From: a bacterium
GTDB lineage: Bacteria; SZUA-182; DTGQ01
Reading direction: 5' to 3'
NCBI GenBank assembly: GCA_040755755.1
Contig: JBFLZW010000001.1
Span: 62,001 to 126,000, forward strand
Length of the DNA: 64,000 nt
This document shows positions 10,847-54,098 of the stretch, piece after piece (within the stretch, counting starts at the first letter, position 1; every line of letters starts with the position of its first letter). Made by a program: the position numbers and the translations under genes. The notes beneath the pieces are model-generated. The model worked only from the letters and a program-made list of their open reading frames with translations, did not search any database and was not told the origin of the DNA.

Positions 10847-12661
10847 ATGATATCTCATGAGCCAGAATTTATTATGTACAAGCATACAAAGCCCAAAGAG
10901 AAAGCCCGAATAGAATTTGGAGATTTTCAAACTCCGCAGGAGTTGGCTTTCCTGATTTGCAGGTTTCTCAGGAGCACGGGTATTGCGCCTTTATCGATAG
11001 TCGAGCCAACTTGTGGACAGGGCAGTTTTCTCATCGCTGCCCTGGAGACTTTTACCTCGGCCAGCCAGGTGCTGGGGATTGATATTAACAGCTCCTATCT
11101 CAATAAGGTACGCGATAAGTTATTGAATCATCCATTCTCAGGCAAGGTCGAGCTCAAGCACGGGGATTTTTTTGCCCTGAGATGGAGAAACATAGTAGAC
11201 ACCTTGCCTGAGCCTTTATTGATAATAGGAAATCCACCCTGGGTAACGAACTCCGAATTGGGAAGTATCGATGGCGGGAATCTTCCCTTGAAGTCTAACT
11301 TTCAACATCATGGAGGACTTGACGCCATTACGGGTAAAAGTAATTTCGATATCTCGGAATGGATGCTGATTCAATTACTTACCTGTATCAGGCATAAACA
11401 GGCGATACTGGCTATGCTGTGCAAGACTGCTGTTGCCCGTAAGGTTCTCAAGGATATGTGGCAGAATAACCCTGGGATAGCCAATGCCGCAATCTATTTG
11501 ATTGATGCAAAGAAATACTTCAATGTTTCTGTCGATGCATGTTTGCTCATATGTCATGCCAATAAAAGGCAAGTTACTATGGATTTTCTCCATTTCCCCT
11601 ACTATAAGGGCTCCCTGTTTCTCGATGAGGAGGGTGGAAATAGCCATCACCCCCACCCAACCTCCCCCCTCAAGGGGGAGGAGCCCAAAGATGCCCCCCC
11701 TGACACAGGGGCTCCCTGCCTCAAGGGGGCGGGGGGGAGGGAAAGCTCTCTCCTTAAGGGAGATAGCCAAGGCCCTCCCCTCAAGTGTGATGGTGAATGC
11801 TCCCACACAAGATTGGAAACATCTGAAGTTTCCAACCATGCGTATGTCTATCCGTGTCTTACCCAAAACTCACCCATTGCAGCCATTGGTATCAGAGATT
11901 CCCGGCTCATCGCTGACATAACAAAATACACCCGGTGGAAGCATCTTGAGCTTGAAGGGGAGGAGTTGTATACATGGCGATCCGGGATAAAGCATGATTG
12001 CAGGAAAGTGATGGAACTCATCCAGGAGGAGAATTCCTATAGGAATGGCTTAGGTGAATGTTACGACCTTGAGGATAACTGTATCTATCCATTCCTCAAA
12101 AGTTCTGACCTTGGCAGGCGGGAAGATAGTGCTTTTTGCAAGGATGGTGCTTCTTGTATTGTTCCTCGTTGTTGGGTTATAATTACTCAGGAATTTGTCG
12201 GGCAGGACACTTCCACTATCCGCCATAAGGCACCAAAAACATGGCGTTATTTAGTAGACCACAGGGATTTCTTTACTCAGCGTAAGAGCTCGATTTATAA
12301 AAACCGTCCCCCTTTTGCTATTTTTGCCATAGGGGATTATGCATTTTCACCCTGGAAGGTAGCGATATCCGGGCTCTATAAAAAGCTTTATTTTGTTGTC
12401 ATCGGCCCCCATGCTGGTAAACCCGTTATGGTAGATGATACCTGTTATTTTATTTCATGCCACAGTGAAGGTGAGGCTAACTTGATTGCAGAGTTATTAA
12501 ATTCATCTCCTTCGCGTGAGTTCCTGTCGTCGTTCATATTTTGGGATGCAAAAAGGCCGGTTACAGTCGAAGTTCTCAGGCGAATAGATATTGTTAAGCT
12601 TGCTGATGTCTTAGGCAGGAAGGAAGAGATTGAATTTTATTTAGGCAAGAAGAAACAATAG
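10847..12661 (+). CDS. Second N6-adenine DNA methyltransferase
   Basis: 604 aa. DFQTPQELA near residue 28, motif I VEPTCGQGSFL near 54, acidic loop GIDINSSYL, motif IV IGNPPWVTN near 129. The rest is target-recognition type (FLKSSDLGRR; FAIGDYAFSPWKVAISG). It differs from the enzyme at 7908 and has no endonuclease partner here. Residues about 266-327 are a Pro/Gly/Lys-rich insert (HHPHPTSPLKGEE) encoded by an intruding repeat; removing it joins GGN with the conserved VYPCLTQ region. Start could be ATG 10847 or ATG 10874 (MYKHTKPKEK); neither has a strong ribosome site. Confidence 0.82.
   Translation: MISHEPEFIMYKHTKPKEKARIEFGDFQTPQELAFLICRFLRSTGIAPLSIVEPTCGQGSFLIAALETFTSASQVLGIDINSSYLNKVRDKLLNHPFSGKVELKHGDFFALRWRNIVDTLPEPLLIIGNPPWVTNSELGSIDGGNLPLKSNFQHHGGLDAITGKSNFDISEWMLIQLLTCIRHKQAILAMLCKTAVARKVLKDMWQNNPGIANAAIYLIDAKKYFNVSVDACLLICHANKRQVTMDFLHFPYYKGSLFLDEEGGNSHHPHPTSPLKGEEPKDAPPDTGAPCLKGAGGRESSLLKGDSQGPPLKCDGECSHTRLETSEVSNHAYVYPCLTQNSPIAAIGIRDSRLIADITKYTRWKHLELEGEELYTWRSGIKHDCRKVMELIQEENSYRNGLGECYDLEDNCIYPFLKSSDLGRREDSAFCKDGASCIVPRCWVIITQEFVGQDTSTIRHKAPKTWRYLVDHRDFFTQRKSSIYKNRPPFAIFAIGDYAFSPWKVAISGLYKKLYFVVIGPHAGKPVMVDDTCYFISCHSEGEANLIAELLNSSPSREFLSSFIFWDAKRPVTVEVLRRIDIVKLADVLGRKEEIEFYLGKKKQ
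11642..11826 (+). repeat. In-frame repeat insertion in the methyltransferase
   Basis: GC-rich repeat with GCCATCACCCCCACCCA, CTCAAGGGGGAGGAG, GCTCTCTCCTTAAGGGAG and AACATCTGAAG blocks. The same blocks in the same order occur on the other strand at 50321-50430, inside the phage protease/scaffold gene. Both copies keep the host frame open. Confidence 0.8.
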
Positions 12662-13595: not shown

Positions 13596-14417
13596 ATGAA
13601 TGAATCTCAAGAGATACAAGGTGAACAGCAGCCTATGTTCGATGAAAACTGCCCCACCTGCGAGGGGACCGGGTGGGAGCGGGTTATCGAGGATGGTTTC
13701 GAGAAGGTCAAAAGGTGTAAGTGCTACTATCAGGCGCGGCGAAAACGGCTGTTATTGGCGGCCCGGATACCCCGCAGGTATTCACACTGCACACTGGACC
13801 GGTTTATCGTCAGCGATGTCGATTACGAGGAATGCTCCAAGGGCTTATCCAAGGGCAGGGGTTTGGATCCCTATAAGAACCATGTCAATATTGCCGGGGC
13901 TAAATTCGGGGCTGAAAATTTTATCCGGAAATATCGGACTACCCAGCAGAAAGAGGGTATTTTCTTTATGGGTAAATGCGGTGTGGGAAAGACACACCTT
14001 GCGGTAGCCATTATCCGGGAGCTTATTGAAAATGGGGGAGTCCCCTGCATGTTCTATGATTTCCGGGACCTGCTCAAGGAGATTCAGGCATCGTACAACC
14101 CGCAGTCTCAAATCTCTGAATACTCGGTCCTGGAGCCGGTATTGACGATAGAGATTTTACTTCTGGATGAGTTGGGAGCGGCCAAAGTGACAGACTGGAT
14201 GCGGGATACGTTGACCTATATCCTCAACACCCGCTACAATGAGAACCTGACGACCATTATCACTTCCAACTGGCTGGATGAGAAGAAAGATAACAATGAT
14301 GAGATACTGGAGGAGCGAATCGGGGAACGGTTGCGCTCCCGGCTCTCTGAGATGTGCAAGGTCTATGAAATTATTGGCCAGGATTTTCGGAGAAAGAGCG
14401 GCCGTGCTTACTCGTGA
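13596..14417 (+). CDS. DnaC/IstB-like helicase-loader ATPase
   Basis: 273 aa. N-terminal zinc-finger-like CPTCEGTGW..CKCYY, then an AAA+ domain with Walker A MGKCGVGKTHLA near residue 125, Walker B ILLLDELGA near 187, and sensor TIITSNW. This is the DnaC/DnaI arrangement: it would bind ssDNA and help load the replicative helicase. IstB transposition helpers share the fold, but there is no istA or insertion-sequence end nearby, and the upstream partner gene argues for a replication role. Confidence 0.82.
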   Translation: MNESQEIQGEQQPMFDENCPTCEGTGWERVIEDGFEKVKRCKCYYQARRKRLLLAARIPRRYSHCTLDRFIVSDVDYEECSKGLSKGRGLDPYKNHVNIAGAKFGAENFIRKYRTTQQKEGIFFMGKCGVGKTHLAVAIIRELIENGGVPCMFYDFRDLLKEIQASYNPQSQISEYSVLEPVLTIEILLLDELGAAKVTDWMRDTLTYILNTRYNENLTTIITSNWLDEKKDNNDEILEERIGERLRSRLSEMCKVYEIIGQDFRRKSGRAYS

Positions 14418-41221: not shown

Positions 41222-41524
41222 TCAGGAAACAAATTTCCTTTTTTTCTCATGAACAGTTCTTCGAATGGCATTACGAATAGCGTAGGGATTTATTCTCAGT
41301 ATCCCACAGATATTGCGGAAGCTGAATGGATAGTCAAAGTTATCTATGGATATCCAATAGGCCGCTGCATCTCTTCCATCGTTATTAACAATATCCAGCA
41401 GGGCCTGATCCAGGACTGCTTCGGCAAGGGCTTTGATCTCCGGCGGTATGGAGTCTTGCCGAAATTCAGCCAGGTATTCTTTTTCAAGTTGAATAGGTTC
41501 AATGGCATCGATCGTCATAGTCAT
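41222..41524 (-). CDS. Conserved small protein of unknown function
   Basis: 100 aa, helical. WISIDNFDYPFSFRNICGIL followed by NPYAIRNAIRR resembles a small family scattered in delta-proteobacteria and Nitrospira genomes, with a helix-turn-helix-like C-terminus. Gene end of the minus-strand phage-type run or independent; cannot tell. Confidence 0.5.
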   Translation of the reverse strand: MTMTIDAIEPIQLEKEYLAEFRQDSIPPEIKALAEAVLDQALLDIVNNDGRDAAAYWISIDNFDYPFSFRNICGILRINPYAIRNAIRRTVHEKKRKFVS

Positions 41525-41584
41525 GTTTCTCTCCCCTCGAAAATAAGTTCACCCCTAAAAGGGTTCCCCCTGAAAAACTCTCCC

Positions 41585-41836
41585 TTAAAAAGACCTCCTG
41601 AAGGCTCCTGGTAAAATGCCTCTCTTCGGTCTTTCTATCTCTCTATCCATCTTCAGCTTCTGCTGAATGTGTTCCTCCCACCAATTCTCCAGCATTTTCT
41701 GGTCAGCCTCATAGACGGAATTCTGGCTGTCTCCTTTGATAATAGGTGCACCCTGGGCTATGTAGGTTATAACTTTTCTCCATCCGGTGCCGAAAAAACC
41801 GGCAATTGCCTGTTTACCAACCAATGGACGGCCCAT
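41585..41836 (-). CDS. HTH protein, possible small terminase-like subunit
   Basis: 83 aa. MGRPLVGKQAIAGFFGTGWRKVITYIAQGAPI is a Nu1/MerR-like winged-helix opening as in DNA-packaging small subunits; rest helical and basic. Strong AAGGAGGGATG before ATG. Terminase small subunits normally sit before the large one, not after the tape measure, so a regulatory HTH protein is equally possible. Confidence 0.5.
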   Translation of the reverse strand: MGRPLVGKQAIAGFFGTGWRKVITYIAQGAPIIKGDSQNSVYEADQKMLENWWEEHIQQKLKMDREIERPKRGILPGAFRRSF

Positions 41837-41947
41837 GAAATCATCCCTCCTTCCCTCGGTCTGAAGGACCGCACAATAGACTGCACAATAATCTGAAACT
41901 TATCTTACCAATCTTACCAACCCTCATCAAAGCCGTGCCTTTTCCCT

Positions 41948-42015
41948 AGTACAGGTCGCGGGAATTACAAAGCCCCCTCACCCCGGCCCTCTCCCCTTCA
42001 GGGGCGAGGGAGTTA
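41948..42015. repeat. CCCTCACCCC..CTCTCCCC repeat fragment
   Basis: CCCCCTCACCCCGGCCCTCT then CCCCTTCAGGGGCGAGGGAG: GC-rich hairpin type resembling, but not identical to, the repeats at 11642 and 50321. Confidence 0.45.
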
Positions 42016-42082
42016 AAGGGAGTTAAAATGGCTCCATCCCCTGCGTTTGGCCGCTGCCCTATCCAGTTAGAGAGAGAACTAT

Positions 42083-44227
42083 TTAAATCCGCGATCGGGC
42101 TTTTTGCACCACAGTTGGATCATCGAGGCTTTCCAATACCTTTTGTCTGATAATCTGCCCATCGACAACCACATTAATGGTGATCTGACCTGATTCTTTC
42201 AGGTCAAGCAGCATGGGAGCAAGGGCTTGACTGACTTCCCGGCCAATATCCCGGGCCGAGTTTGCGGATATGCTCTCCCATTGTGCCTGCTGTCCCCCCA
42301 ATCCCCCTGCTCCCGTTATGCCGAGAGATTTACTCCGTATCTCCTGCACCCAGGGAATGCTCTCGACTCCGGCCCTCACTGAAGCAACTTCGGTACTGTA
42401 GTCAGTGCTCACTTCCTGCCGCCAGGGCAGATATTGTGAAGTCATGAACCTGGCGTAGCTGGAAAATGCCTCTGGGTCTGCCAGGGCACTGGCGTAGAGC
42501 TCACCTCTGAGAGTCTCAAGCCTGGCCATGCTTTCGGCAGGAGCGAGTGAACCGGTGTCGAGGCTCATCAGAAAATTATCAACTGTCCCTGTAAGGGCGG
42601 TGGTGTTCTGACCCAAGGCTTCGGTGTTGAGGCCAAGAGCTTCCCGAAGGCCCTGAAACGCTGTATTCAAGGTTTCCCAGAAAGGCTGAAAATCCAGGAG
42701 AGCAGACGACAGCTCACCTGCCATCTGGGTCAAGAAGCCCTGGGCCTGGTCCAGAGGCAGATTGCCGCTTATATACTGCTTCAGCACTTCACTCAGGGCA
42801 GGCCGGGAATCCGTCCCATAGAATGGCTGAAAGATTATGGGTAAAAATTCCTGCTCGGCAAATCCCTTGATGAGAGATTGCTGCACACTGTTCAGGATAC
42901 TCTGCTTGAAATTCTCCTCAAATGTCTGAAACTCACCGGTCTTGAGAGAAGCGGTAAAAGCTTGGCCCATCCCGGCAGTGACCAGATCGAAAATCCCATT
43001 GACCTGCTGGTTGAGATCGGTGAAAAACTCCTTCCAGGGAGTTTGACTTTCCGCTGAACCAAGGGCAATTTCTCCCCGGTTGAACCAGCCGGGAATCACG
43101 CTCCTGGCAAACTGCTCGAGCTGGGGGAATATTTCCTCGGTGATTGCTACTCCGGGATGACGGGTCAGGAACAAGTCGAAAATTGAATTTGACAGTATCC
43201 CCGGTCGGCCAATCGGTGAGAAGATGTCCTGGCTGTTCATCCAGTCTTCAAAGGCAGACATGGCCTGTCCAGGCGGCAGTCCGGTGAACTGGTTGAATTT
43301 CCAGTCCAGATAGGACTGTAAGACATCTCTGTTGTAGCCGTAAACGAAAAGGCCAAGGTTTCCGGTCATGGTCTCCATGAATATATCTTTCAGCTCTTCC
43401 TGGAAGCCGGTGCCGAAAACCTCCGAAAGCTGCCCAAAAGAGCCAAGAGCAACCTTGATCAGCCCCTGCACGGTCTGCTGGTTGAGAATATCCTCGATCG
43501 ATCTTCCTATTCCCCCCAGACTGAAATCAACGTCAGGAACTTCCTCTCCACCTGCTACCACAGCCAGTTTTTTCATAAAGTCCAACTGGCTTTGCCAGAC
43601 CTCTTCGACCGCGGCTACGATTTTGGGATCGCGGCCCATATTCTGCCAGGTTTCGGCCACACTCGCAATCTGCCCGTCAATGGTCTTCCAGAGCAGATTA
43701 AAGGACGGAAGCTCAGGCTCACTTTCCTCTACCCTGTGCATGAGCGATCCCATAAGCCCACTGACTGCAGCACCGAAAGGTCCCGCAACCAGCCCGGAGC
43801 TGAAGGTATTCAATACTGCATTTTCAAAAGTGCTGGAAGCAGTCCCTGTACTCCTACTCTGTCCTTTTTGATAACCCACAAGGCCGGTAAAGTAATTGTC
43901 CAGGGGTGACGATTTCAGACCTGCAGAAGGGGCAGCCTGCGGCAGGGTTCTGGCGGTTGAATTCTGGGCTGAGGACAATCCTTGCCCTCCGCTGATCGGA
44001 GGATCAAGATTCAGCGATCTGAGGGCCGCAGCCAGCCCGGCTGCGGCCCTTTTCTGAAGGAGGAGATTCTCCCCGACTCCGGTGAGAGTCGTCTGGAGCC
44101 TCTTGAGTTTTTCTGATGTTTCATCAGTTCTTTTTCCCGTATCCTCAATGGCCTGCCCAAATTCTCTGACCACCCTGACTGAATTACCATTCTCTAATTT
44201 GAGGTTTAAGCCTGACTCACGATTCAT
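42083..44227 (-). CDS. Phage tail tape-measure-type protein
   Basis: 714 aa. N-terminal coiled coil (VRVVREFGQAIEDTGKRTDETSEKLKRLQ), Ala/Gly hydrophobic middle (GAAVSGLMGSL) and long helical stretches, in the tape-measure position directly after the tail chaperone, whose shifted frame overlaps its ATG by 11 bases. At about 1.5 angstrom per residue a tail near 100 nm would result. No tail-tip genes follow, which is unusual. Confidence 0.75.
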   Translation of the reverse strand: MNRESGLNLKLENGNSVRVVREFGQAIEDTGKRTDETSEKLKRLQTTLTGVGENLLLQKRAAAGLAAALRSLNLDPPISGGQGLSSAQNSTARTLPQAAPSAGLKSSPLDNYFTGLVGYQKGQSRSTGTASSTFENAVLNTFSSGLVAGPFGAAVSGLMGSLMHRVEESEPELPSFNLLWKTIDGQIASVAETWQNMGRDPKIVAAVEEVWQSQLDFMKKLAVVAGGEEVPDVDFSLGGIGRSIEDILNQQTVQGLIKVALGSFGQLSEVFGTGFQEELKDIFMETMTGNLGLFVYGYNRDVLQSYLDWKFNQFTGLPPGQAMSAFEDWMNSQDIFSPIGRPGILSNSIFDLFLTRHPGVAITEEIFPQLEQFARSVIPGWFNRGEIALGSAESQTPWKEFFTDLNQQVNGIFDLVTAGMGQAFTASLKTGEFQTFEENFKQSILNSVQQSLIKGFAEQEFLPIIFQPFYGTDSRPALSEVLKQYISGNLPLDQAQGFLTQMAGELSSALLDFQPFWETLNTAFQGLREALGLNTEALGQNTTALTGTVDNFLMSLDTGSLAPAESMARLETLRGELYASALADPEAFSSYARFMTSQYLPWRQEVSTDYSTEVASVRAGVESIPWVQEIRSKSLGITGAGGLGGQQAQWESISANSARDIGREVSQALAPMLLDLKESGQITINVVVDGQIIRQKVLESLDDPTVVQKARSRI

Positions 44228-44570
44228 GGTCTTGACTGTTCTCCTTCAGGAAACTTTCCACTTTCCTGACCTTGTAAATAATATCCAGTTGCTCTTCAGC
44301 CTCGATAGCCATCAGGTCCATGACCCTGGCTAAAAATCCATAATCCAGTTGGCCGCTCATGTCTCCCCTGGCTCCGAAGCACAGGTCATGAACCTCAAGG
44401 CAGGTTTCATTGACTGCCAGAAGTCGCGGCGGCCTTCTGCCAGGATATCTGGTCTCACAGCCATCACAGGGCGGATTGATACCCTGCCGATCGAATTTCT
44501 TCCGGCATCTGGCACAGTAGGTTGGGTTCTCTCCGTTATTCCTCAGTCGCCAGCGCCAGAAGTCAATGAG
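44217..44570 (-). CDS. Tail assembly chaperone extension (-1 frame, GT-like)
   Basis: After slipping, the frame continues LIDFWRWRLRNNGENPTYC.. for 117 codons to TGA 44217-44219. There is no usable start codon before MSGQLDYGF, so it needs the shift. It contains a zinc-ribbon pattern CARCRKKF..CDGCETRYPG and an amphipathic C-terminus (FLARVMDLMAIEAEEQL). Together with the upstream 127 residues this gives a 244-aa fusion, analogous to lambda gpGT. Confidence 0.75.
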   Translation of the reverse strand, partial: LIDFWRWRLRNNGENPTYCARCRKKFDRQGINPPCDGCETRYPGRRPPRLLAVNETCLEVHDLCFGARGDMSGQLDYGFLARVMDLMAIEAEEQLDIIYKVRKVESFLKENSQDHES

Positions 44571-44950
44571 TTTTTTACCTCTTCCTCACGTGCCTGGCTT
44601 GCCCTGGCCTGAGCATCGAGGCAGGCGGCAGCTACAAGATTGGTGAACCCGGGAAATTGTTCGACTAATATCTTTTTATTCTCCTCGTTGAAAGGGATCG
44701 GCTGGCCGGTACCATCCTTAAGCTCCCAGTCAATAACCTGGCCCAGGAAAATTTTTGGCAGATAAATATCCTGGTCAAAGCTGCTGCGGGAGGTTTCAGC
44801 CTCCCTGCGGATGTGGCGAAGCTCGGTTCTGGTCAATGGCTTAATCCTGACTCTGAAGCTAAGTCCTTCAAATTCCGATTTTTCAAAAACCCGATGACTT
44901 CCGTCAATCCACACTCCATCCCTCTGGTTTAAATCTAACAGTAAATCCAT
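44543..44950 (-). CDS. Tail assembly chaperone, short (unshifted) form
   Basis: 135 aa. MDLLLDLNQRDGVWIDGSHRVFEKSEFEGLSFRVRIKPLTRTELRHIRRE.. is the tail-chaperone type placed between tail tube and tape measure, like gpG of lambda. The frame ends at TGA 44543-44545. At 44570-44576 it carries a slippery AAAAAAC in the right phase for -1 shifting. Confidence 0.75.
   Translation of the reverse strand: MDLLLDLNQRDGVWIDGSHRVFEKSEFEGLSFRVRIKPLTRTELRHIRREAETSRSSFDQDIYLPKIFLGQVIDWELKDGTGQPIPFNEENKKILVEQFPGFTNLVAAACLDAQARASQAREEEVKNSLTSGAGD
44570..44576 (-). promoter_or_regulatory. Predicted -1 ribosomal frameshift site AAAAAAC
   Basis: Reading frame is GTA AAA AAC, so A-AAA-AAC fits the X-XXY-YYZ rule exactly. 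It is in the last tenth of the chaperone gene and followed by a GC-rich region (TTCTGGCGCTGGCGACTGAG) able to form a stem. Confidence 0.8.
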
Positions 44951-44969
44951 AGTTCATTCTCCTTCCTGC

Positions 44970-45000
44970 ACTGACCACTGGCCACTGACCACTGATCACT
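44970..45000. repeat. TCAGTGG-family repeat in the phage module
   Basis: ACTGACCACTGGCCACTGAC followed by CACTGATCACT between the chaperone and tail-tube genes; same family as the host copies at 4333, 25509 and 62059. Confidence 0.7.
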
Positions 45001-45007
45001 TTCTTTA

Positions 45008-45961
45008 TTACGCATAACTTGCCTGGCTGTTGATCAAAATCACCCGAAAGTCACTGGCTGCCGCCGCGTTCTGGTAATAACCGATAAAACTCAGGTCCAG
45101 ATAGGCTCCTCCGGGTCCCTGGATTGCCGGTGATTCATGGCTATATTCAAGCTCGTCAGCCAGAAAGGCTATGGAATGAGTTCCCAGAGTGCAGGTTACC
45201 GAGAGCGAACTTTTGGTGTGATTTCTTCCTTTGGCAATAAGGGTATCAGCATCGAACATGCCCTTGATTTTACCTTCAAGAGCGGGAGTCCCCTCGCCTG
45301 CTATGGTCCCCTCGCCGCTGCCAGCCAGGCCAAAACCCATAACCGTATTATTTTGAAAGTTGAAACTGATCTCCTCCAGGGTATCGATTGCCGATCCGCC
45401 TTCACTGGCGGCAGCATCGCAGTTATGGAATATTGTGGCAGGTCTGCTGACATCAACGGTCGGCGACTCCTGATATGAGCTTGCGCTGTACTCTTCTTTC
45501 GCTCCGATTATCGGCACGGTATAGCGCAGCTCGCCATTGCCGCCAAAGCTGATGCTGAACCCGCCAGCCTTGCAGCCGGTATAGAGATAAAACCTGCTCT
45601 CGTTTGGCCAGCCCTTTTCGAGCAGAAACGAGGGAGTCAGGGCTCCTATTTTGAATGTATGCGTATATGGATCGCTGGATCCGGTTGTAGTCGGTGCTCC
45701 GAAAACCATCTTGAGAATATAGCCGATAGCTATCAGATCAACCGGCCCGGTCAAATTACCGGTTACTGTTTTATTCCCGTAAAATGGCCTGGCAGCATGA
45801 CGGCCAGCCCCCAGAATGGTTGAGGATTGAGGCTTCTGGTCCACTTTCAGATCGCATGAGCCAAAGGGAAGTTTAATGGCCGCCGCTGAAACCGGCGGTG
45901 TTTTAAATGCTGTTTCAAAATCAAGCAGCAACTGACTGCTGGCATTACTTGCCCAACCCAT
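45008..45961 (-). CDS. Major tail tube protein
   Basis: 317 aa, beta-rich (GASGG-type strands, FYLYTGCKAGGFSISFGGNGELRYTVPIIGAKEEY), typical of siphophage tail tube proteins with paired beta hairpins. Position between tail terminator and tail chaperone supports it. No membrane segment. Confidence 0.75.
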   Translation of the reverse strand: MGWASNASSQLLLDFETAFKTPPVSAAAIKLPFGSCDLKVDQKPQSSTILGAGRHAARPFYGNKTVTGNLTGPVDLIAIGYILKMVFGAPTTTGSSDPYTHTFKIGALTPSFLLEKGWPNESRFYLYTGCKAGGFSISFGGNGELRYTVPIIGAKEEYSASSYQESPTVDVSRPATIFHNCDAAASEGGSAIDTLEEISFNFQNNTVMGFGLAGSGEGTIAGEGTPALEGKIKGMFDADTLIAKGRNHTKSSLSVTCTLGTHSIAFLADELEYSHESPAIQGPGGAYLDLSFIGYYQNAAAASDFRVILINSQASYA

Positions 45962-45994
45962 ATATCAAGCTCCTTCCTGTTCCTTCCCCTTCCC

Positions 45995-46432
45995 CTACCA
46001 GCTCCTGTGCCTGGTAAAGACAAAGGTTATGGTTTTTTTCTGAATCATCTCTTCCTTATCCCCGTACAATTGACTGGGATCTTCTGAGACCGGAAAAACA
46101 TTCTGCACACCGGGAAGATTCAACTTCTGATCAATCAGGCTGGTTACGACATCATTGGCCACAGCCAGAACGCCATGAGTGCCCATGACCGATTCTTCAG
46201 GTTTTAATATCCGCTGGTACACGGTTATCCTGACCTCAGCGTGCTGGAGGTAATTCCTGGCCAGCATCTGTTCATTTCTGATTGGGCCATCCTTGATGAC
46301 AATGGCTGGAAAATTGCCAGCGGCTGGAATTGAATTCTCATCGCTGATAATGGAAATATCTCCATCCCGCACATAGCTCAGGGTGTCATCAGCCTGAAGA
46401 TGTGTTTTGATTGCCTTCAGCAGTTCTTTCAT
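45995..46432 (-). CDS. Tail terminator/completion protein
   Basis: 145 aa. MKELLKAIKTHLQADDTL..FPAIVIKDGPIRNEQ..AEVRITVYQRI fits the small alpha/beta proteins that cap the tail tube and join it to the head. Located just before the tail tube gene, the usual place. Confidence 0.65.
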   Translation of the reverse strand: MKELLKAIKTHLQADDTLSYVRDGDISIISDENSIPAAGNFPAIVIKDGPIRNEQMLARNYLQHAEVRITVYQRILKPEESVMGTHGVLAVANDVVTSLIDQKLNLPGVQNVFPVSEDPSQLYGDKEEMIQKKTITFVFTRHRSW

Positions 46433-46470
46433 GGTGTTAGTCTCGTGTAAAGACAGTTGTCAGTCCGCGA

Positions 46471-46752
46471 TCACATAAGATGGATATAAAGCTTTCCGCC
46501 GTCAATGGTTAAGATGTTGATCCCCTGGACTCCCCGCCGCTCAAGTCTTCGCTCTTCAATGGCCTGGCTTTCGCTGTGAGGCGCACCAGCCAGAGCCCGT
46601 ATTTTCCACAGCATGTTTCCGAGACTGTCCCGTACTTCAAGATCATCATTGGCAGCTCCCGGATGCCACTCCATGCTTTTGATGTCATAAACACCCGGCT
46701 TATTTTCAACCGTGTCGATTTCCATTGGGTTCTTACTCCAATCATTAGCCAT
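46471..46752 (-). CDS. Small phage-module protein, unknown
   Basis: 93 aa, KPGVYDIKSMEWHPGAANDDLEVRDSLG..LWKIRALAG. A beta-sandwich-like small protein between the adaptor and tail terminator; head-tail joining or capsid-associated role possible by position only. Confidence 0.55.
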   Translation of the reverse strand: MANDWSKNPMEIDTVENKPGVYDIKSMEWHPGAANDDLEVRDSLGNMLWKIRALAGAPHSESQAIEERRLERRGVQGINILTIDGGKLYIHLM

Positions 46753-46799
46753 AGGGCTTCTCCTTTCTATCGATGCCGTTTATTTCTGGCCACTGACCA

Positions 46800-47471
46800 C
46801 TAATAATTATCCAGCGTTCCGCTTGAAGCATCGGAGATGCGGCCCATTGAGAATATCCGGTCTCTTTTGCTGCCGGTTGTCATTGGCCCCGGATAATTTT
46901 CCGTATCCGGTGCATCAGCACCCAGCGAAACAACCCCTCTGGCCACATTCTCAAGGAACTTGAGTGCGGATATATACCGGTCCCGCCGTTCATCCGGAGC
47001 ACCTTTTCGCCGGGCATAGAGATTGTAGAGGGTAATATCAACACTGATCTTGCGGATCATCACCGGAACGCCGGTAAAGGGCAAATTCGTATACCGGGCT
47101 GCACAATAGCTGTCAATCTCAGCACCGGCGTCAGCAATAGCCCGCTCAATCACCGAGGTGCTGATGGTGTTCAACTCTGTGACCGCAGTTCCGCTCTGGT
47201 GAGGTGCAGCCGTGGTCTTATTCACCCCTCGTACGCAGCCGGTCAACTGGTTGCCGATCTTTTCCGTATAGTCAATCTGCTCCGAATCGATCTCAATCCT
47301 GCCGCCGGATTCCGAAAACCTGGAAGCATCCGTGAGGATAATACCTGTTTCTGCTGCATCGATCTCCCCAGCCAGGGTACCGGAAGCGAGATTGCTCCGG
47401 TCGTCGGTCAATTGAATGAGATCATCTTCCTGCATCTGCTCTTTCAAGTCACTCAGGGTACAGTACATCAT
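46800..47471 (-). CDS. DUF1320 head-tail adaptor with inserted domain
   Basis: 223 aa from ATG 47471 (AGGAG 8 bases upstream), not 47492. The ends match DUF1320 (gp36 of Mu type): MYCTLSDLKEQMQEDDLIQLTDD at the start and VIERAIADAGAEIDSYCAARY..GAPDERRDRYISALKFLENVARG later. Between them about 70 residues (IILTDASRFSESGGRIEIDS..LTGCVRGVNKTTAAPHQSG) form a small beta domain commonly seen in phage tail or fibre proteins. Confidence 0.78.
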   Translation of the reverse strand: MMYCTLSDLKEQMQEDDLIQLTDDRSNLASGTLAGEIDAAETGIILTDASRFSESGGRIEIDSEQIDYTEKIGNQLTGCVRGVNKTTAAPHQSGTAVTELNTISTSVIERAIADAGAEIDSYCAARYTNLPFTGVPVMIRKISVDITLYNLYARRKGAPDERRDRYISALKFLENVARGVVSLGADAPDTENYPGPMTTGSKRDRIFSMGRISDASSGTLDNY

Positions 47472-47496
47472 GAAAGTTACTCCTGTGGTCATTATA

Positions 47497-47540
47497 GTGG
47501 TCAGTGGCCAGTGGTGAGTGGTCAGTGATCAGTGGTCAGT
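47497..47540. repeat. TCAGTGG-family repeat before the DUF1320 gene
   Basis: Five consecutive GTGGTCAGTG/GTGATCAGTG units in the capsid-adaptor gap. Longest array of the family in this window. Confidence 0.75.
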
Positions 47541-47665
47541 AAAGGAGAAATGGCACTTTGATTGCCGGGGCGGCACTGCCACTGTGACCGCCCCGGCGAT
47601 CACAAACCACCTGTGTAAGACCCATTCTCCCCTGGCCCCGAATAATCCAGTGGATATCCCCCTTG

Positions 47666-48646
47666 CTAACTGGCGATGGTGTTGTACCACAAATAGCCAA
47701 GATCCGCGCCGGTCTGGAGAATACAGACATTCTCCTTTACTTCATACACGTCCTGATTTTCAGCAGGCTCATTCCATGTCCTGGTGCTTCGGGGAAGCCC
47801 GTTCGGATAAGGGACCCTGACCTGATAGCCGGAGCTTGGGGTCTTGAGTCCCGGAACCGGTGGCCGGTAGAAGAGAAAAGCCGAGCCTTTACCGGCATTT
47901 TTCTCCCAGATTCTGGCAGCCGTAAACTCGGAACCAGCTTTCTTCTCCTTGGCGGAGGAGTAAATAGCCCCGCCAACCAGGACTTCATCCAGGTCAAAGA
48001 GGGCAGCGATCAGCTCAGCCGAGATAATGCCCCGCTGCGTGTATTTGATTCGCTCAAGCACCGTGGTTTCCATTTTAAGCTCTTTCAGGGTGTTTGCAGA
48101 GAGCAGCAGCACATTGGGCCGAAACCCGGTATTGCTCTCGATCCGGTCAATGGCAGTCTCAACATCCCTGATAAAGGTATTGCCTGCACCTGCGGCCCAC
48201 AACCCTTGAGCATCCTCGCCTCCGGAAAGATCAGACCAGGTGCTGGTGAGGACGATCTCGGCCACCCGGCGCTCTTTTTTCAGGTCGATCTTCATGGTGC
48301 AAAATTCAATGGCATCCTGCTCCGGCTGCAAGGGGGGAGTATTGGGCAGAGCAGCCAGTTGCCGGTCCTCTTCGGTAACTTCCTTGGCAAAGGCATACTC
48401 CGTGGCGTTGATAGACACGGTATCGATTTTATAGCCGCCTCTGGCTGACCTTGTTCCGGGTGCCCTGATAGCCGCCTCATCACGAAACCAGTCACTCTTC
48501 AGATAGCGGCCAATTTTGGCTTCGGGCGAAGGGCTGTCAATGACCGGAAAGACCCGGTCCGCAATGTAGGCACGATTCCGGTAAGCAAGAGAAATATTGG
48601 CCAAAGGCCCTGAAACCAGTAAACCTCTCACATTTGGCTGTCCCAT
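47666..48646 (-). CDS. Major capsid protein
   Basis: 326 aa. RGLLVSGPLANISLAYRNRAYIADRVFP near the start and NVLLLSANTLKELK..FDLDEVLVGGAIYSS in the middle are typical of Mu/GpE-like HK97-fold capsid proteins that follow a DUF2190 decoration gene. It has no N-terminal delta domain of its own, consistent with a separate scaffold (49591-50205). Confidence 0.82.
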   Translation of the reverse strand: MGQPNVRGLLVSGPLANISLAYRNRAYIADRVFPVIDSPSPEAKIGRYLKSDWFRDEAAIRAPGTRSARGGYKIDTVSINATEYAFAKEVTEEDRQLAALPNTPPLQPEQDAIEFCTMKIDLKKERRVAEIVLTSTWSDLSGGEDAQGLWAAGAGNTFIRDVETAIDRIESNTGFRPNVLLLSANTLKELKMETTVLERIKYTQRGIISAELIAALFDLDEVLVGGAIYSSAKEKKAGSEFTAARIWEKNAGKGSAFLFYRPPVPGLKTPSSGYQVRVPYPNGLPRSTRTWNEPAENQDVYEVKENVCILQTGADLGYLWYNTIAS

Positions 48647-48727
48647 AGCTATTTTCCTCTCTTCTTATGTAGGCAGCGGGTTGCAGGATAGAGATTCCTG
48701 CTCCACTGATACCTGCTGATTGAATGA

Positions 48728-49483
48728 TTAATGGACTCCGGTTCCAAGACTGTAAATAGTTACGCTCGAACCATCGTTTATAACGCACAAAAAGCGCCGG
48801 CTGTTATTCTGGGCAATAGTCATGGTGCCGGACAGGGTTATATTTGCACCAGCAGTCAGGGTAATGGTTTCGGCAGCATCCGCTGTGTTGCGGATAGTAA
48901 ACTCAAAGGAATTGCCCGCACTGGCCTGAGTCAGGGCAGCAATAATCTGTGCTGCATCGGGAAAGACATCAGAGCGGTCAGCCCCGTTCGGATCGCGCAG
49001 GATCAGGCCGCCAAGCAATTGCTCAGCAGTATAGGTAGCGGCCCCGGCCTCAGACAGGGTGGTCACGGATATCTGGCCGATGATGGTTCCGGCACCATAA
49101 GGGAACGGGCCGATCAGTTCCACGGCACACAGGTCATCTTCAGCGTCAGCAGCCTCAAGAACACGGGCCCGCGTATACTTCCAGTTAGCGCCCGCATCCT
49201 CAGCCTTGCCTGCATCAGCGGCACTGACATATTCAGGCTTGACGAACTTGCCAATGCTGAGGGCCGCACCGGCTACCAGCTTGCTCTTGCCAAGCAGCAT
49301 GACACTGCCTGCCTGACCGCTGGCCGGTGCATCCTGCAGGATGCCAAGGGCCACTTCCGCGCTTGAATCCGGTAATCTTATCTTACCCGTGGCCGGATCC
49401 AGAACCACGAAATGGTATTGATAATTCGAGAGATCTTCCGCTGCCTGAAAGGGAAGACGAAGAACAGCATTTTCTGTGCTCAT
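48728..49483 (-). CDS. DUF2190-type capsid decoration protein
   Basis: 251 aa. The first 125 residues (ENAVLRLPFQAAEDLSNYQYHFVVLDP..GILQDAPASGQAGSVMLLGKSKLVAGA) match DUF2190. The C-terminal half (ITLTAGANITLSGTMTIAQNNSRRFLCVINDG) is a beta-helix or head-spike-like extension. Lies directly upstream of the capsid gene. Confidence 0.72.
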   Translation of the reverse strand: MSTENAVLRLPFQAAEDLSNYQYHFVVLDPATGKIRLPDSSAEVALGILQDAPASGQAGSVMLLGKSKLVAGAALSIGKFVKPEYVSAADAGKAEDAGANWKYTRARVLEAADAEDDLCAVELIGPFPYGAGTIIGQISVTTLSEAGAATYTAEQLLGGLILRDPNGADRSDVFPDAAQIIAALTQASAGNSFEFTIRNTADAAETITLTAGANITLSGTMTIAQNNSRRFLCVINDGSSVTIYSLGTGVH

Positions 49484-49504
49484 ATTTCTTTCTCCTTGTT
49501 ATAG

Positions 49505-49582
49505 GTGGTCAGTGATCGGTGATCAACAGCAGGATAAAAATTTACCGGCTCCTGACTTCTGACTTGTGACTTCTGACTCCTG
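49505..49582. repeat. Two repeat families side by side
   Basis: GGTGGTCAGTGATCGGTGAT (TCAGTGG family, from 49505) and CTCCTGACTTCTGACTTGTG (TTCTGAC family, 49550 on) between scaffold and decoration genes, both shared with host intergenic spaces. Confidence 0.65.
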
Positions 49583-49590
49583 AAAATGAA

Positions 49591-50205
49591 TTATCTGGCA
49601 AGGTGGATTTCCTGCTCATACTCTCTGACAAGATCAGGATTTTCCCGCTGAACCTCGCTGAAGGCGGCCATATAATCAAGTTTTGGATTCTCTTTCATCT
49701 TCCCGGCAACCAGATCGTTCAATTGCTGGCCTGCATTGCCGGAGGCGGCGATATTTTTAGCCCTGGTGGCAAATTCACCGAAATTGACTGTCCTGGGCAG
49801 CTCAGAAAGAAAGTTGCGAAACCACTGGTACGGAGTTTCTTTTTTGCCTTCGGCAAAGTTGAAATTCTGATCAGTCCCCAGACTCTCCATGAATTGAGCG
49901 AGACCCAGTTTTTCCCATGCTGGCAGGATGTGGCCAAACTGAATGCCAGTGGTGATAAACTCTCTGATTTCCTTCCTCCTGGCCGCTTCTCCATCCTTCC
50001 GCCGCTGCTCGGCAAAGTCTGCCGTGGCCTCTTTCCGGCCCTCTTCTCTGGCCTCCTCGATTTTCCTGGCTGTCTCATCACTGATTTGATTCAGCCGCTC
50101 GGTAAACTCTCCAATGCTTTTTTGCAGCTTTTCCTCGAATTCAGCCGTAATCCGCTCCCGCTGCTGATCGAGGAGAGCCTGCATCTGCTCCTCTGTGTAA
50201 GACAT
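49591..50205 (-). CDS. Nested scaffolding protein (in-frame internal start)
   Basis: 204 aa. ATG 50205 is in frame with the protease gene and preceded by AAGGAGGGTC at the right distance. The product is just the helical scaffold domain, matching the Mu I/Z and lambda C/Nu3 design, where the scaffold is made alone from an internal start. Confidence 0.7.
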   Translation of the reverse strand: MSYTEEQMQALLDQQRERITAEFEEKLQKSIGEFTERLNQISDETARKIEEAREEGRKEATADFAEQRRKDGEAARRKEIREFITTGIQFGHILPAWEKLGLAQFMESLGTDQNFNFAEGKKETPYQWFRNFLSELPRTVNFGEFATRAKNIAASGNAGQQLNDLVAGKMKENPKLDYMAAFSEVQRENPDLVREYEQEIHLAR

Positions 50206-50910
50206 ATTCTGACCCTCCTTATGTTGAGTAAAGTTTTCGTCCTCCCTCTGTTGAGTAGAGCTTTCGCTCAACGCCGGTGCAGCACCGGCATTTTCTCCTG
50301 TCGATGCGCTGCTGCCCTCCTCAGATGTTCCCCATCTCACCTGAGAGCCTTCACCATCTCCCGTGAGGAGAGAGCCTTCACTATTCTCCTCCCCCTTGAG
50401 GGGGGAGACTGGGTGGGGGTGATGGCCATTGTCATCCTCCTCACTGTTCTCTGCCCCAAGAGCATCGGAAAAAAGCATGCAGTGCTCACCTTCTCCGAAC
50501 TTGAGGTCAGCCAGCCCCTTGACAGCGGGAGGCATGCCACCCAAAAACCCGACATGCCGAAGGCGGCCGTCGGGATAGAAACTGGCCGAGCGCTTTTTGT
50601 ACAGGCCCTGCCTGACTGCCTGAGCAAACTCCGGCACCACATCCTTGAATTTGGCCATAAGTACATTAACTTTGCTTCCATCATTGAGCTTCCGGGTTAC
50701 CTTCCTGAGAGCTTTCACCCAGCCAAAGGCCGGAGAGTTATCGTGAGGATGTCCAACCGTTATCGGCGGCTCATGGTATTCGGGATCGAAGAGCCGTATT
50801 GCCTTGTCAATCAGCTCATCCCCCTCATGCTCGGCACCCTGACTGTCGATTTGCTTTCCTCCGGCAAAGATTGGCACCCAGTCATCGAAACCTGAAAAAT
50901 CCCTGTTCAT
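49591..50910 (-). CDS. Phage prohead protease/scaffold fusion (Mu I-like)
   Basis: 439 aa. Residues 1-150 are a Mu I-type protease: ITVGHPHDNSPAFGWVKALRKV, then KKRSASFYPDGRLRHVGFLGG. Residues 150-235 are a low-complexity linker containing the intruding repeat (DDNGHHPHPVSPLKGEE). Residues 236-439 are a coiled-coil scaffold (QALLDQQRERITAEFEEKLQKS) that also has its own start at 50205. It would cleave the scaffold during head maturation. Confidence 0.8.
   Translation of the reverse strand: MNRDFSGFDDWVPIFAGGKQIDSQGAEHEGDELIDKAIRLFDPEYHEPPITVGHPHDNSPAFGWVKALRKVTRKLNDGSKVNVLMAKFKDVVPEFAQAVRQGLYKKRSASFYPDGRLRHVGFLGGMPPAVKGLADLKFGEGEHCMLFSDALGAENSEEDDNGHHPHPVSPLKGEENSEGSLLTGDGEGSQVRWGTSEEGSSASTGENAGAAPALSESSTQQREDENFTQHKEGQNMSYTEEQMQALLDQQRERITAEFEEKLQKSIGEFTERLNQISDETARKIEEAREEGRKEATADFAEQRRKDGEAARRKEIREFITTGIQFGHILPAWEKLGLAQFMESLGTDQNFNFAEGKKETPYQWFRNFLSELPRTVNFGEFATRAKNIAASGNAGQQLNDLVAGKMKENPKLDYMAAFSEVQRENPDLVREYEQEIHLAR
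50321..50430 (-). repeat. In-frame repeat insertion in the protease/scaffold gene
   Basis: On the minus strand it reads GGCCATCACCCCCACCCA, CTCAAGGGGGAGGAG, GCTCTCTCCTCACGGGAGAT and AACATCTGA: the same ordered blocks as 11642-11826, about 60 bases shorter. It encodes HHPHPVSPLKGEE here and HHPHPTSPLKGEE there, in the same frame. Confidence 0.8.
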
Positions 50911-50931
50911 TATCCTATCCTCCTTTCTTTT

Positions 50932-52167
50932 TCACTGGCCACTGTTTTTACTAACCACTTCCTCTCCCTCCAGTGGCTGCGGCAGGCCGTAAGTTTCATA
51001 AAAATACGATTTGGCTATCGGCAGGCCGATCTCGGTCACTAATGTCCTGTCAATCTGACTTCGATCTGCCAGGTCCGGCTTTTTACCGGCGTGGGTCACC
51101 AGGCGGGGGTAGCTGGTCACGCCCGGAAAGTTGTAATCAACAATCCAGGGTATCAGGACCTTATTCAGATATCCGTCGAGCAGGTCCGCATCAGCTTCGA
51201 TGATATCCTGCCTCACTTCATCATGGATCTGCGAGGCGGCGTAAGAGCCCCTGCTGCCGACATCGGTGGTCAGGGTCTGGCCAAGTGCGGTTTTCGATAT
51301 TTGCCGGTCGAAATACTCACAGGCTGCCAGATATGAGCCATCACCCTGCCGGGAGGCTTCCATCAACTCTATGGACATGGAGTCCGGAATAACGATCCCG
51401 GTCTCGGTTCTGATGGCATCGATGGCTTCAAGGAGTTTTGTCCGCTGCTCCCTGGCCTGGGCCGGGTACTTGCCGATGGGGGTTGGCATGCTGAATTTCT
51501 CCATAAAAATGACCCAGAATTTGATGCCATGCTTCTTGAACCAGACCGGCCACCAGAGCTTTTGCCCCAGGCCCTGGCCATACGGGTTGTCGCTGTCGCC
51601 GTACTGGAAGATGAGGAATTTACGGTCCGGAAGCGGATCTCCGTTGATCATCGAGGCTGGGGTCAGTAAGCGCGGCTCCCGCTCCAAAGTAAAGCAGAAA
51701 CGCCTTGGATGCTTGCCAAGGAACCGGTCGATAACGATATTCCCGTTTTTCACTTTCCAGATGATTTCAGCGCCATAGTAGCCGTAGAGAATTGCCTGCA
51801 GGATTTCAAGCCGCAGTTGATCGAAGTTACAATCCATGAGCACGGATTCGACGAATTGGGCAATCTGCACATCGGGCAGGTCACGGCCCGACTTTGAGGC
51901 CCGGCGGTGATTTCCCGCCGGGACCACACTCCACTCCTTGCCGACTACGGCCAGATAGCGGGTCTGCAGCACGGAAAAAGCATGCGGATCGCGGACAACC
52001 TCATCGTAGAGCCTGATTCCCTTCCCTCTGGCTTCGGTAAGCAGCACCGGGTCCGGATTTTCCAGGCGGTTGATCCAGCCGCCGAAAACGTCAAGGTCTT
52101 TGCCGGTCGTGGCAATTTCCTTCTCAACTGTTTTTGGTATCTTTATCTCATTGAATTCAGTTGTCAT
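50932..52167 (-). CDS. Mu gp29-like portal protein (DUF935)
   Basis: 411 aa. DLDVFGGWINRLENPDPVLLTEARGKGIRLYDEVVRDPHAFSVLQTRYLAV and KFWVIFMEKFSMPTPIGKYP are typical of the DUF935 portal family. The dodecameric portal sits at one capsid vertex and is the DNA channel. Genes on both sides are the terminase and the protease, as in Mu-type head modules. Confidence 0.85.
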   Translation of the reverse strand: MTTEFNEIKIPKTVEKEIATTGKDLDVFGGWINRLENPDPVLLTEARGKGIRLYDEVVRDPHAFSVLQTRYLAVVGKEWSVVPAGNHRRASKSGRDLPDVQIAQFVESVLMDCNFDQLRLEILQAILYGYYGAEIIWKVKNGNIVIDRFLGKHPRRFCFTLEREPRLLTPASMINGDPLPDRKFLIFQYGDSDNPYGQGLGQKLWWPVWFKKHGIKFWVIFMEKFSMPTPIGKYPAQAREQRTKLLEAIDAIRTETGIVIPDSMSIELMEASRQGDGSYLAACEYFDRQISKTALGQTLTTDVGSRGSYAASQIHDEVRQDIIEADADLLDGYLNKVLIPWIVDYNFPGVTSYPRLVTHAGKKPDLADRSQIDRTLVTEIGLPIAKSYFYETYGLPQPLEGEEVVSKNSGQ

Positions 52168-52185
52168 GTGCCTGACTCCTTAAGT

Positions 52186-53724
52186 TCAATAGCAGTTCAT
52201 TGCGGCCATATAGTCACACTTTCGGCCAGTGCTGTCGAAATCAAAACAGGCAGTGCGGGTGCGAAAATACTTGAGCGCCATGCTCAGCATGTCCGCCTGG
52301 TCCATGGTCGCCCCAAGCGGGAAGTGGCCGATTTCCTGCAAAAAATCAGACAGCCAGGGTGCTGAATCAGGCAGCCAGACATTGCCTGCCTCGATGGCCG
52401 GGCTCTCGATGGCCAGTCTGGTGATTTTGTCCGATTCAGGCGCGAATGGAATCAGAGGGAGCGCAGTTTCCAGCGGCAGATCCTGCAGCAGGGAAGAGCC
52501 GGTTGACTTATCCTCAATCAGAATGACCTGAGGATTGAATTTTTCAGCCAGGGCTTTGACCATCCGCTTGCCGAGAGGATAGGTCAGCCATTCCCGAAAG
52601 ACATCGACAAGGTAATAGCCGGTCTTGGTTCTGACCCAGGTTCCGCAGACCCAGGGGCAGTTGAGCAGCTCATCCGCCTTCTGGGCCGTATCCCAGCATT
52701 GCAGTACCTCTATCCACTGATCCCGTGAAGGGATGGCCCGGTAAGTACGAAACCAGTCAAGCCGGACCAGGCCGCCTTTTGACGGAACAGGGTTTTGCTG
52801 CAATTGCCCGGCTGTGCCAAAGGTACCAAGCACTTTTTTCTGCTGATCAAGCCAGTCCCGGTCAAAGCGGGCCGGCCACAGCAATTCTCCCTCCACCTCA
52901 CGCGGGTCCTGCACTCCCAGGCAGGTCACGCACCTTCTGTCCGGCTCAAACTCCATGGGAAAGCACAGATGCTCCCAGCCGCCGTCCTTGAGCACATGAC
53001 CGGTCAGGTCATCCTCGTGAAGACGCTGCATAATGATGACAATGGCCGACTTTTTCGGATCATTGAGCCTGGTGAAAAGCTCCTGATCAAAGGTATCGAG
53101 GGTGTTCTGCCGTTCCGTATCGGAGAACATGGCTTTTTTGGCATTGTGAGGATCATCGATGATCAGAATATCCCCCCCCTCTCCGGTCACTCCCGAAGTC
53201 ATGCCAAAGGCCACCCTGCAGCCGGTACGGTTATTCTCGTACCTCGTCTTCTGGTTCTGGTCCGTGGTGAACCGGAAGCGGTCTGCCCAGCCGGTTTTAA
53301 ACCACTGGCTGTCGATGATCCGCCGTGACTTCAGGCAATCGCGGGTCGCCAGGGCATCCTTGTGCGATCCGGTCAAAAATCGCTTGGTCGGATCCTGCAG
53401 CCAGACCCAAACCGGCCACATGACTGAAACAATGGTCGATTTGGATGTCCGGTACGGGACATTAATCACCAGACGACGGATCTCACCTCTGGCCACAGCC
53501 TCAAGATGATTGCAGATCGAATCAATATGCCAGTTATCGACAAAGGAACGACCGGGCTCAACTACCGGCCATGCCGCCTCGATGAAGGAGCGAAGGGACT
53601 TTTCAGCCCCCTCGTACATTTCCCGCTCAGCAGCGGAAAGTCCGGTCTCCTGACCGCAGGCACCGTATGCTTCCTGAGCACCTTCCCGTACTGCATCCTG
53701 CACTTTTGTCCTCTTCTTCATTGC
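52186..53724 (-). CDS. Terminase large subunit
   Basis: 512 aa from ATG 53724 (CTGGAGGATA upstream), rather than 53748. ATPase domain: NVPYRTSKSTIVSV (Walker A-like), GDILIIDDPHNAKKAM (Walker B). Nuclease domain: VLQCWDTAQKA, VILIEDKSTGSSLLQDL and MDQADMLSMALKYF. Packages DNA into the prohead and cuts it. First gene of the minus-strand module; a terminator at 53812-53852 isolates it from the upstream operon. Confidence 0.9.
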   Translation of the reverse strand, partial: AMKKRTKVQDAVREGAQEAYGACGQETGLSAAEREMYEGAEKSLRSFIEAAWPVVEPGRSFVDNWHIDSICNHLEAVARGEIRRLVINVPYRTSKSTIVSVMWPVWVWLQDPTKRFLTGSHKDALATRDCLKSRRIIDSQWFKTGWADRFRFTTDQNQKTRYENNRTGCRVAFGMTSGVTGEGGDILIIDDPHNAKKAMFSDTERQNTLDTFDQELFTRLNDPKKSAIVIIMQRLHEDDLTGHVLKDGGWEHLCFPMEFEPDRRCVTCLGVQDPREVEGELLWPARFDRDWLDQQKKVLGTFGTAGQLQQNPVPSKGGLVRLDWFRTYRAIPSRDQWIEVLQCWDTAQKADELLNCPWVCGTWVRTKTGYYLVDVFREWLTYPLGKRMVKALAEKFNPQVILIEDKSTGSSLLQDLPLETALPLIPFAPESDKITRLAIESPAIEAGNVWLPDSAPWLSDFLQEIGHFPLGATMDQADMLSMALKYFRTRTACFDFDSTGRKCDYMAAMNCY

Positions 53725-53811
53725 ATTATCCTCCAGGTTGCTTTTCATGCTGGGGCTTGTATGCCCCGATGATAATTACCCAGATTACCCAGCGGCTGCA
53801 GCCCGAAAAAC

Positions 53812-53852
53812 AAAAAAGCCCGGTAAAACCATCTCTGGTTTCGACCGGGCTT
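53812..53852 (-). terminator. Rho-independent terminator upstream of the phage module
   Basis: On the minus strand AAGCCCGGT pairs with ACCGGGCTT, with an inner AAACC/GGTTT stem and a run of T after it. It stops transcription arriving from the radical SAM gene before the terminase. Confidence 0.75.
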
Positions 53853-53942
53853 CAAGGTACGCTTTTTCAGAAAGCGTCTTTCAGTAACCGTTACTTATTG
53901 ATTCAATTGAAGAACTGAACATCCCCTGCACTGCGTTATGAG

Positions 53943-54098
53943 GTGCGGAGGATGTCAATTTATTTTATTATTATGATATTTATAATTTGCACCCTAGTTT
54001 ATTATTGGATCGATATGTTTAATTTTTATAACTATATTTTTAATATATCAAACATCAATCGAGATTTCAAGTATTATTTTTATCAAAATTGCCTAAAA
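53943..54098. other. AT-rich gap between terminator and small minus-strand ORF
   Basis: Strongly AT-rich. A plus-strand frame (53943-54188) of mostly Ile, Phe and Tyr is compositional, not a gene. Nothing else seen. Confidence 0.4.

Follow-up and report, generated by a model that had tools for sequence, protein, structure and literature searches.

We analysed a 64,000-nucleotide window (the whole stretch of DNA shown here; positions 62001-126000 of contig C1 of G000, a genome whose draft assembly amounts to 5.26 Mb over 88 contigs) and found on its minus strand, at 41222-53748, a module of phage head and tail-tube genes with a Mu-type portal, comprising 13 intact open reading frames (ORFs) and a conserved -1 frameshift gene. 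ORFs cover 90% of this stretch. The initial annotation had described a head-and-tail module here, and all of the frames that it listed are present on the minus strand; genes were named by hidden Markov model matches (PFAM and PHROG families), which identify most of them. A second copy occurs in G001, the only other genome of the genus compared, whose module contig matches JAILZY010000019 of the metagenome-assembled genome HOT.CON.50. The reduced gene set, the predicted promoter and leader terminator, and the chaperone frameshift are common to both species, and all frames are open and conserved. We also compared the module with three related phage contigs that are readable beyond the tape measure gene (L142/G060 and L249 from IMG/VR, and C9 from G000 itself), and with a set of nine genomes of the phylum that includes two further genera of the same family.

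Reading from 53748 towards 41222, the first gene encodes the large terminase TerL (520 aa; 52186-53748; phrog_38, 3.9e-89, PF17289). In an alignment of four relatives its ATPase positions K103 and D198/D199 and its nuclease positions D353, D413 and D486 are invariant, at 82% identity to G001 and 65% to two phages. There follow the Mu-type portal (411 aa; 50932-52167; PF06074, 3.5e-107), a head maturation protease/scaffold (439 aa; 49591-50910; phrog_976, 1.3e-59, and alignment), a cement/scaffold protein (251 aa; 48728-49483; phrog_673, 3e-52, with a weak PF09956 match), the major capsid protein (326 aa; 47666-48646; phrog_1005, 2e-68) and a head-tail adaptor of the Mu gp36 type (46800-47492; PF07030, 2e-33, phrog_195). 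Next come a conserved 93-aa protein (46471-46752; 89% identical to G001 and 53% to L142), a tail completion/terminator protein (45995-46432; a weak PF11367 match, and 65% identity to the equivalently placed gene of L142) and the tail tube protein (317 aa; 45008-45961; PF18906, 4.4e-35).

The tail assembly chaperone (G; 44543-44950; phrog_313, 5e-7) is extended into a GT product (44217-44573) by a -1 shift at the slippery heptamer A AAA AAC, in the motif GTAAAAAACTC within 44559-44578. Both the heptamer and the downstream frame, KLIDFWRWR, are kept in the two species, while the zero-frame end differs, and the GT frame with its CxxC motifs is conserved in G001 and in phage L142. Such a chaperone frameshift is what a functional tail assembly system needs. 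The 714-aa ORF that follows (42083-44227) has no family match, and we call it the tape measure from its position and its 29-49% identity to phage tape measures.

The two last genes are small. The first encodes an 83-aa protein (41585-41836; 75% identical in G001) with a weak Nu1-like helix-turn-helix (HTH; PF07471, E=0.02, under the cut-off), and is a candidate small terminase or regulator; the second encodes a 100-aa helical protein (41222-41524; 72% identical in G001) that has a distant relative, in host context, in G003. These are the only small-terminase candidates in the module, and their predicted structures were poor, with confidence too low for a fold search. Neither protein has a viral homolog in the phage and viral collections searched, nor was the gene pair found in viral collections.

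Upstream of terL, on the same strand, lies a promoter-like site (TTGAAA-17-TATATT; 54042-54070) that has a counterpart, TTGCAT-17-TATAGT, at the matching place in G001. Between this site and terL is a terminator-like hairpin with a T-run (53812-53852), preceded by a smaller hairpin at 53859-53877. Two blocks, one of 47 bp around the promoter site and one of about 90 bp around the terminator, are each about 87% identical between the two species, and the DNA farther upstream is unrelated. Because the upstream neighbour of the module in G001 points away from it, the leader terminator there belongs to the module and not to that gene. Elsewhere in the two genomes nothing matches the terminator block significantly; the leader has no Rfam match at the gathering score and was not found in the closest phage.

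The initial annotation had taken repeats between the phage genes as a sign of long residence. The repeats are real, in that three short heptamer tandem arrays occupy intergenic gaps (44969-45000, 47496-47540 and 49552-49583), but they say little about age, because they were not found at the matching places in G001. Its statement that no integrase, replication, lysis, tail-tip or fibre gene adjoins the module was borne out by inspection of the window ORFs and by a PHROG scan of 37 flanking ORFs, of which the best 25 of 56 families are all host-type (DNA polymerase, restriction-modification, DnaC/IstB-type ATPase and ABC transporters). The locus is thus a chromosomal cluster of structural and packaging genes without linked replication or integration genes, as expected of a gene-transfer agent (GTA). 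An intact prophage would have integration, lysis, replication, tail-tip and fibre genes, and phage C9 offers the contrast; these are lacking here.

The module in a second species

In G001 the same genes lie in the same order on contig C133 (82-12820), with every ORF open, and their proteins are 54-90% identical to those of the window, the major capsid protein standing at 90%. The dN/dS ratio (nonsynonymous to synonymous substitution rates, by NG86, G000 against G001) is 0.04-0.23 in 12 of the 13 ORFs, dS being undefined for the chaperone and imprecise wherever it is near or above 1. In a neutral simulation with 0.5 substitutions per site on one lineage, about 115 stops arose and at most 2 of the 13 ORFs were left intact. 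The suggestion of the initial annotation that open frames point to selection is therefore upheld. The remnant of a Mu-portal phage on C61 of G000 is broken, which shows that phage genes free of selection deteriorate in this genome.

At fourfold-degenerate sites, identity between the two modules is 0.50 when pooled (n=1246). Host orthologs give about 0.56 without two tail-tip genes and 0.54 pooled with them, with single genes at 0.47-0.63; module genes compared with phages L142, L249 or C9 mostly give 0.25-0.45. On these figures the two modules would have parted at about the time that their hosts did, perhaps slightly earlier. Each module is the other's closest relative in every gene compared except the chaperone, which departs from simple descent: its fourfold identity is 0.72 to phage C9 of the same genome and 0.31 to G001, a pattern that we take as a sign of exchange with the resident phage.

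Vertical inheritance under purifying selection, a hallmark of GTAs, is thus what we find, on two species only. The reduced architecture common to both copies, the open frames and the near host-level divergence make domestication the simplest account, and we regard it as well supported by the comparison that the module was already reduced around the split of the genus and has been under purifying selection since. The initial annotation had listed absence from close relatives and phage-only flanking genes as observations that would tell against it; neither materialised, as the congener has the module and the flanks have no phage-only genes. Its proposal of a domesticated capsid system or GTA accordingly stands, from congener, selection and divergence, in its first part; the second part we treat as a proposal and weigh below.

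Phage relatives and tail-tip loci

The best whole-phage relative, IMGVR_UViG_3300037424_002137 (L142/G060; 36,973 bp), follows the gene order of the module between TerL and the tape measure, and of the module genes it lacks only the two small ones at the 3' end. Identities to the window are 69% for TerL, 71% for the portal, 63% for the capsid and 69% for the chaperone, in addition to those given above for the completion and 93-aa proteins. What sets L142 apart is the presence of a Mu-F minor head protein, Phage_tail_S, a methyltransferase, a tape measure of 1157 aa, a 138-aa protein, a 1252-aa hub, a fibre-like gene and early genes. In a second relative, L249, the tail tube is 74% identical and a 1222-aa tape measure is followed by tail-tip genes.

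Set against these phages, both species show the same losses. The portal is without the C-terminal part of about 100 aa present in the phage relatives (by alignment); the tape measure, at 714 aa against 1013-1222 aa, is some 450 residues shorter; and Mu-F, Phage_tail_S, the accessory genes and an adjacent tail tip are missing. PF04233 (Mu-F) has no match anywhere in G001, and in G000 matches only in C9. The additions common to the two copies are the 83-aa and 100-aa genes, the predicted promoter and the leader terminator.

Phage C9 (1-36392) is Mu-like and has kept its mobility genes. Its tail, of the siphophage type, is related to that of the module (chaperone 81%, tube 62% and completion protein 54% identical), whereas it has its own head (capsid phrog_371), a transposase, a transposition ATPase, an amidase, Mu-F and a tail tip. 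The ends of the C9 contig (L015, L016) are inverted copies of one sequence, resembling the end of an insertion sequence.

More distant are the Roseobacter phages RDJL Phi 1/2, the Pseudomonas phages KPP23/RSP and Arthrobacter phages, which share the major capsid family at 28-36% identity and differ in being complete phages of about 60 kb. A prophage capsid of the anammox planctomycete Candidatus Brocadia sapporoensis (NZ_MJUW02000056; L060) is 63% identical to that of the window.

The initial annotation recommended a search for tail-tip genes elsewhere. Stand-alone hub-type loci do occur in both genomes (G000 C33:967-4754; G001 C135:470-5951), each with a partner of 138/139 aa and each among host genes, with an iron-type ABC transporter in G000 and a GH15 glycoside hydrolase in G001. 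We considered these as a co-inherited second GTA locus and rejected the idea: their fourfold identity between species is 0.18-0.31, against about 0.5 for the module, C33 matches phage C9 more closely, and the hub in G001 is interrupted. Nor does the sequence ahead of the tail-tip locus have significant similarity to the module leader. A join of contigs C133 and C135 of G001 was also discarded, there being no sequence common to the contig ends available. A stretch downstream of the paired 138/139-aa and hub genes is 78% identical between species, and downstream of the isolated hub in both species lies, on the plus strand, a short conserved ORF with paired cysteines (CESCG..CGQC; C33 [L203] at about 472-648, C135 [L205] at 160-375), which is reminiscent of Com of phage Mu.

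Proposed function of the module and alternatives

We propose that a siphophage with a Mu-type portal was fixed in an ancestor of the genus, trimmed to its head, tail tube and assembly genes, and then kept under selection. Transcription from the conserved promoter would stop at the leader terminator, pending a signal that permits read-through. The capsid, cement and protease would form a head on the portal, which TerL would fill with DNA, aided by one of the small genus-specific proteins or by nothing sequence-specific; the adaptor, completion protein, chaperone G/GT, shortened tape measure and tube protein would build a tail, whose length we estimate at about 107 nm from some 714 aa at 1.5 A per residue. 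Because no replication, excision or integration gene is linked to the module, the packaged DNA would be that of the host, and the particle GTA-like.

A domesticated, reduced siphophage module whose particle works like a GTA is in our judgement the best explanation overall, and a probable one. Its parts deserve separate grading. The module has very likely been retained under selection, and it may well make a DNA-packaging particle, although here our confidence is modest. That the particle transfers DNA as a GTA is doubtful but possible; because the packaging and assembly parts are intact, and nothing is present to package or move the module itself, we infer that this is the likeliest use. A more specific scheme, in which a GTA arose independently from a Mu-portal siphophage, exchanges an unlinked tail tip with resident phages and is expressed under the gate of its leader terminator, is offered tentatively and seems rather unlikely.

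Several observations weigh against this explanation, beginning with the imprecision of dS noted above. The use as a GTA is unproven, and neither a particle nor packaged DNA has been observed. The cluster is without a tail tip, a lysis gene or a proven small terminase, the tail-tip genes found elsewhere were not co-inherited with it, and in G001 the hub gene is split by an inserted segment of about 1.4 kb that looks like an insertion sequence (C135 [L205], 2155-3602). Divergence at fourfold sites is slightly greater for the module than for host genes, its surroundings are not alike in the two species, and it is absent from the two other genera of the family that we examined. The comparison within the genus consists of two genomes, both metagenome bins, and the G001 contig stops 81 bases after the final module gene, which limits the view of its 3' neighbour.

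Some of these points might suit a phage satellite or mobile capsid-encoding element, spread by phages like C9 that supply the tail tip, lysis and mobility. The chromosomal positions differ in the two species, and C9, a related phage resident alongside the module in G000, possesses the tail tip that the module lacks and shows signs of exchange at the chaperone. Satellites, however, have integrases and replication or regulatory genes of their own, and no integrase, transposase or replication gene was found in or beside the module in the window, nor, by ORF inspection, any integrase or replication gene in the G001 flank on the one side assembled. The divergence of the module tracks that of the host, and G001 has no second Mu-type portal, so that no helper prophage of the C9 kind was found there. 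Position itself is weak evidence, since the genomes are much rearranged; for the same reason, and because position is not conserved, the module may retain some mobility. We consider a satellite improbable.

Defence is another use to which domesticated genes might be put: module proteins could co-assemble with proteins of related phages entering the cell, so that the phage particles are spoilt, or could serve as decoys, with no transfer of DNA. The tail proteins share 54-81% identity with their counterparts in the resident phage C9, and a missing tail tip and an interrupted hub suit a particle that need not deliver DNA. Yet TerL, portal, protease and frameshift are all conserved, beyond the needs of interference by one or two proteins, which leaves this account decidedly improbable.

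That the two species separately took up a phage or phage arm which was compact by nature and happened to have this gene set, and that both copies are recent defective prophages, appears very improbable. The tail-tip genes are of separate or replaced origin, so such phages do reach the genus repeatedly, and the fourfold divergence of the modules is slightly above the host mean. Against this, the tape measure is longer in each of L142, L249 and C9, a tail tip comes after it, and Mu-F and/or Phage_tail_S are present; the HTH and 100-aa gene pair is not found in viral collections, nor the leader in the closest phage; and the two modules are mutually closest in all but the chaperone. Finally, a dead remnant with frames open by chance or recency, for which an incomplete gene set and intergenic heptamer repeats might speak, is extremely improbable; barring gross error in the dS estimates, it is already refuted by the stops expected under neutrality, the low dN/dS and the broken state of the true remnant C61.

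If the domesticated module does make a particle, that particle may serve the cell itself, perhaps by moving DNA. The GTA of Rhodobacter capsulatus (RcGTA) resembles the module in being a stand-alone chromosomal cluster that has TerL, portal, protease, capsid, head-tail connection, tail tube and tape measure genes and is free of phage genes for replication or integration (PMC7296036, PMC6854486). RcGTA also encodes the distal tail, hub, peptidase and megatron proteins (g12-g15) and a small terminase that has no HTH (PMC7296036, PMC6854486), whereas the module has no tail tip in its cluster and a small terminase candidate only, and its head and portal are of the Mu/phrog_1005 type. A DNA-carrying particle would thus represent another origin of GTAs, from a type of phage (Mu portal, siphophage tail) unlike that of RcGTA and in a phylum with few genomes; our literature search for this set of metagenome-assembled genomes, or for a GTA in this group, found nothing relevant. 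Even without gene transfer, the module would be a clear example of a phage capsid system retained by its host, open to comparison with a whole phage relative, a congener and, within the same genome, a related phage and a decayed relic.

Chromosomal surroundings

The initial annotation recommended looking for the module at the same place in related genomes. It is present in the congener, but at a different location, and neither of the two other genera of the family has it; among the nine genomes of the phylum, only G008 has anything further beyond G000 and G001, a distant prophage. We tried flank synteny as proof of vertical descent and abandoned it, as a hydrogenase and uvrA that lie about 27 kb apart around the G000 module are adjacent in G001, with uvrA inverted. 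The genes flanking the G001 module map to contigs C10 and C22 of G000. The 27 kb missing at the hydrogenase-uvrA site of G001 correspond to 32311-59136 of the window and contain a DnaK-type chaperone, a TPR protein, the module, a B12-binding radical SAM gene and a PIN toxin-type pair. Elsewhere in the window, 10847-12661 is an N6 DNA methylase gene, with an IstB/IS21-type ATPase gene nearby at 13596-14417.

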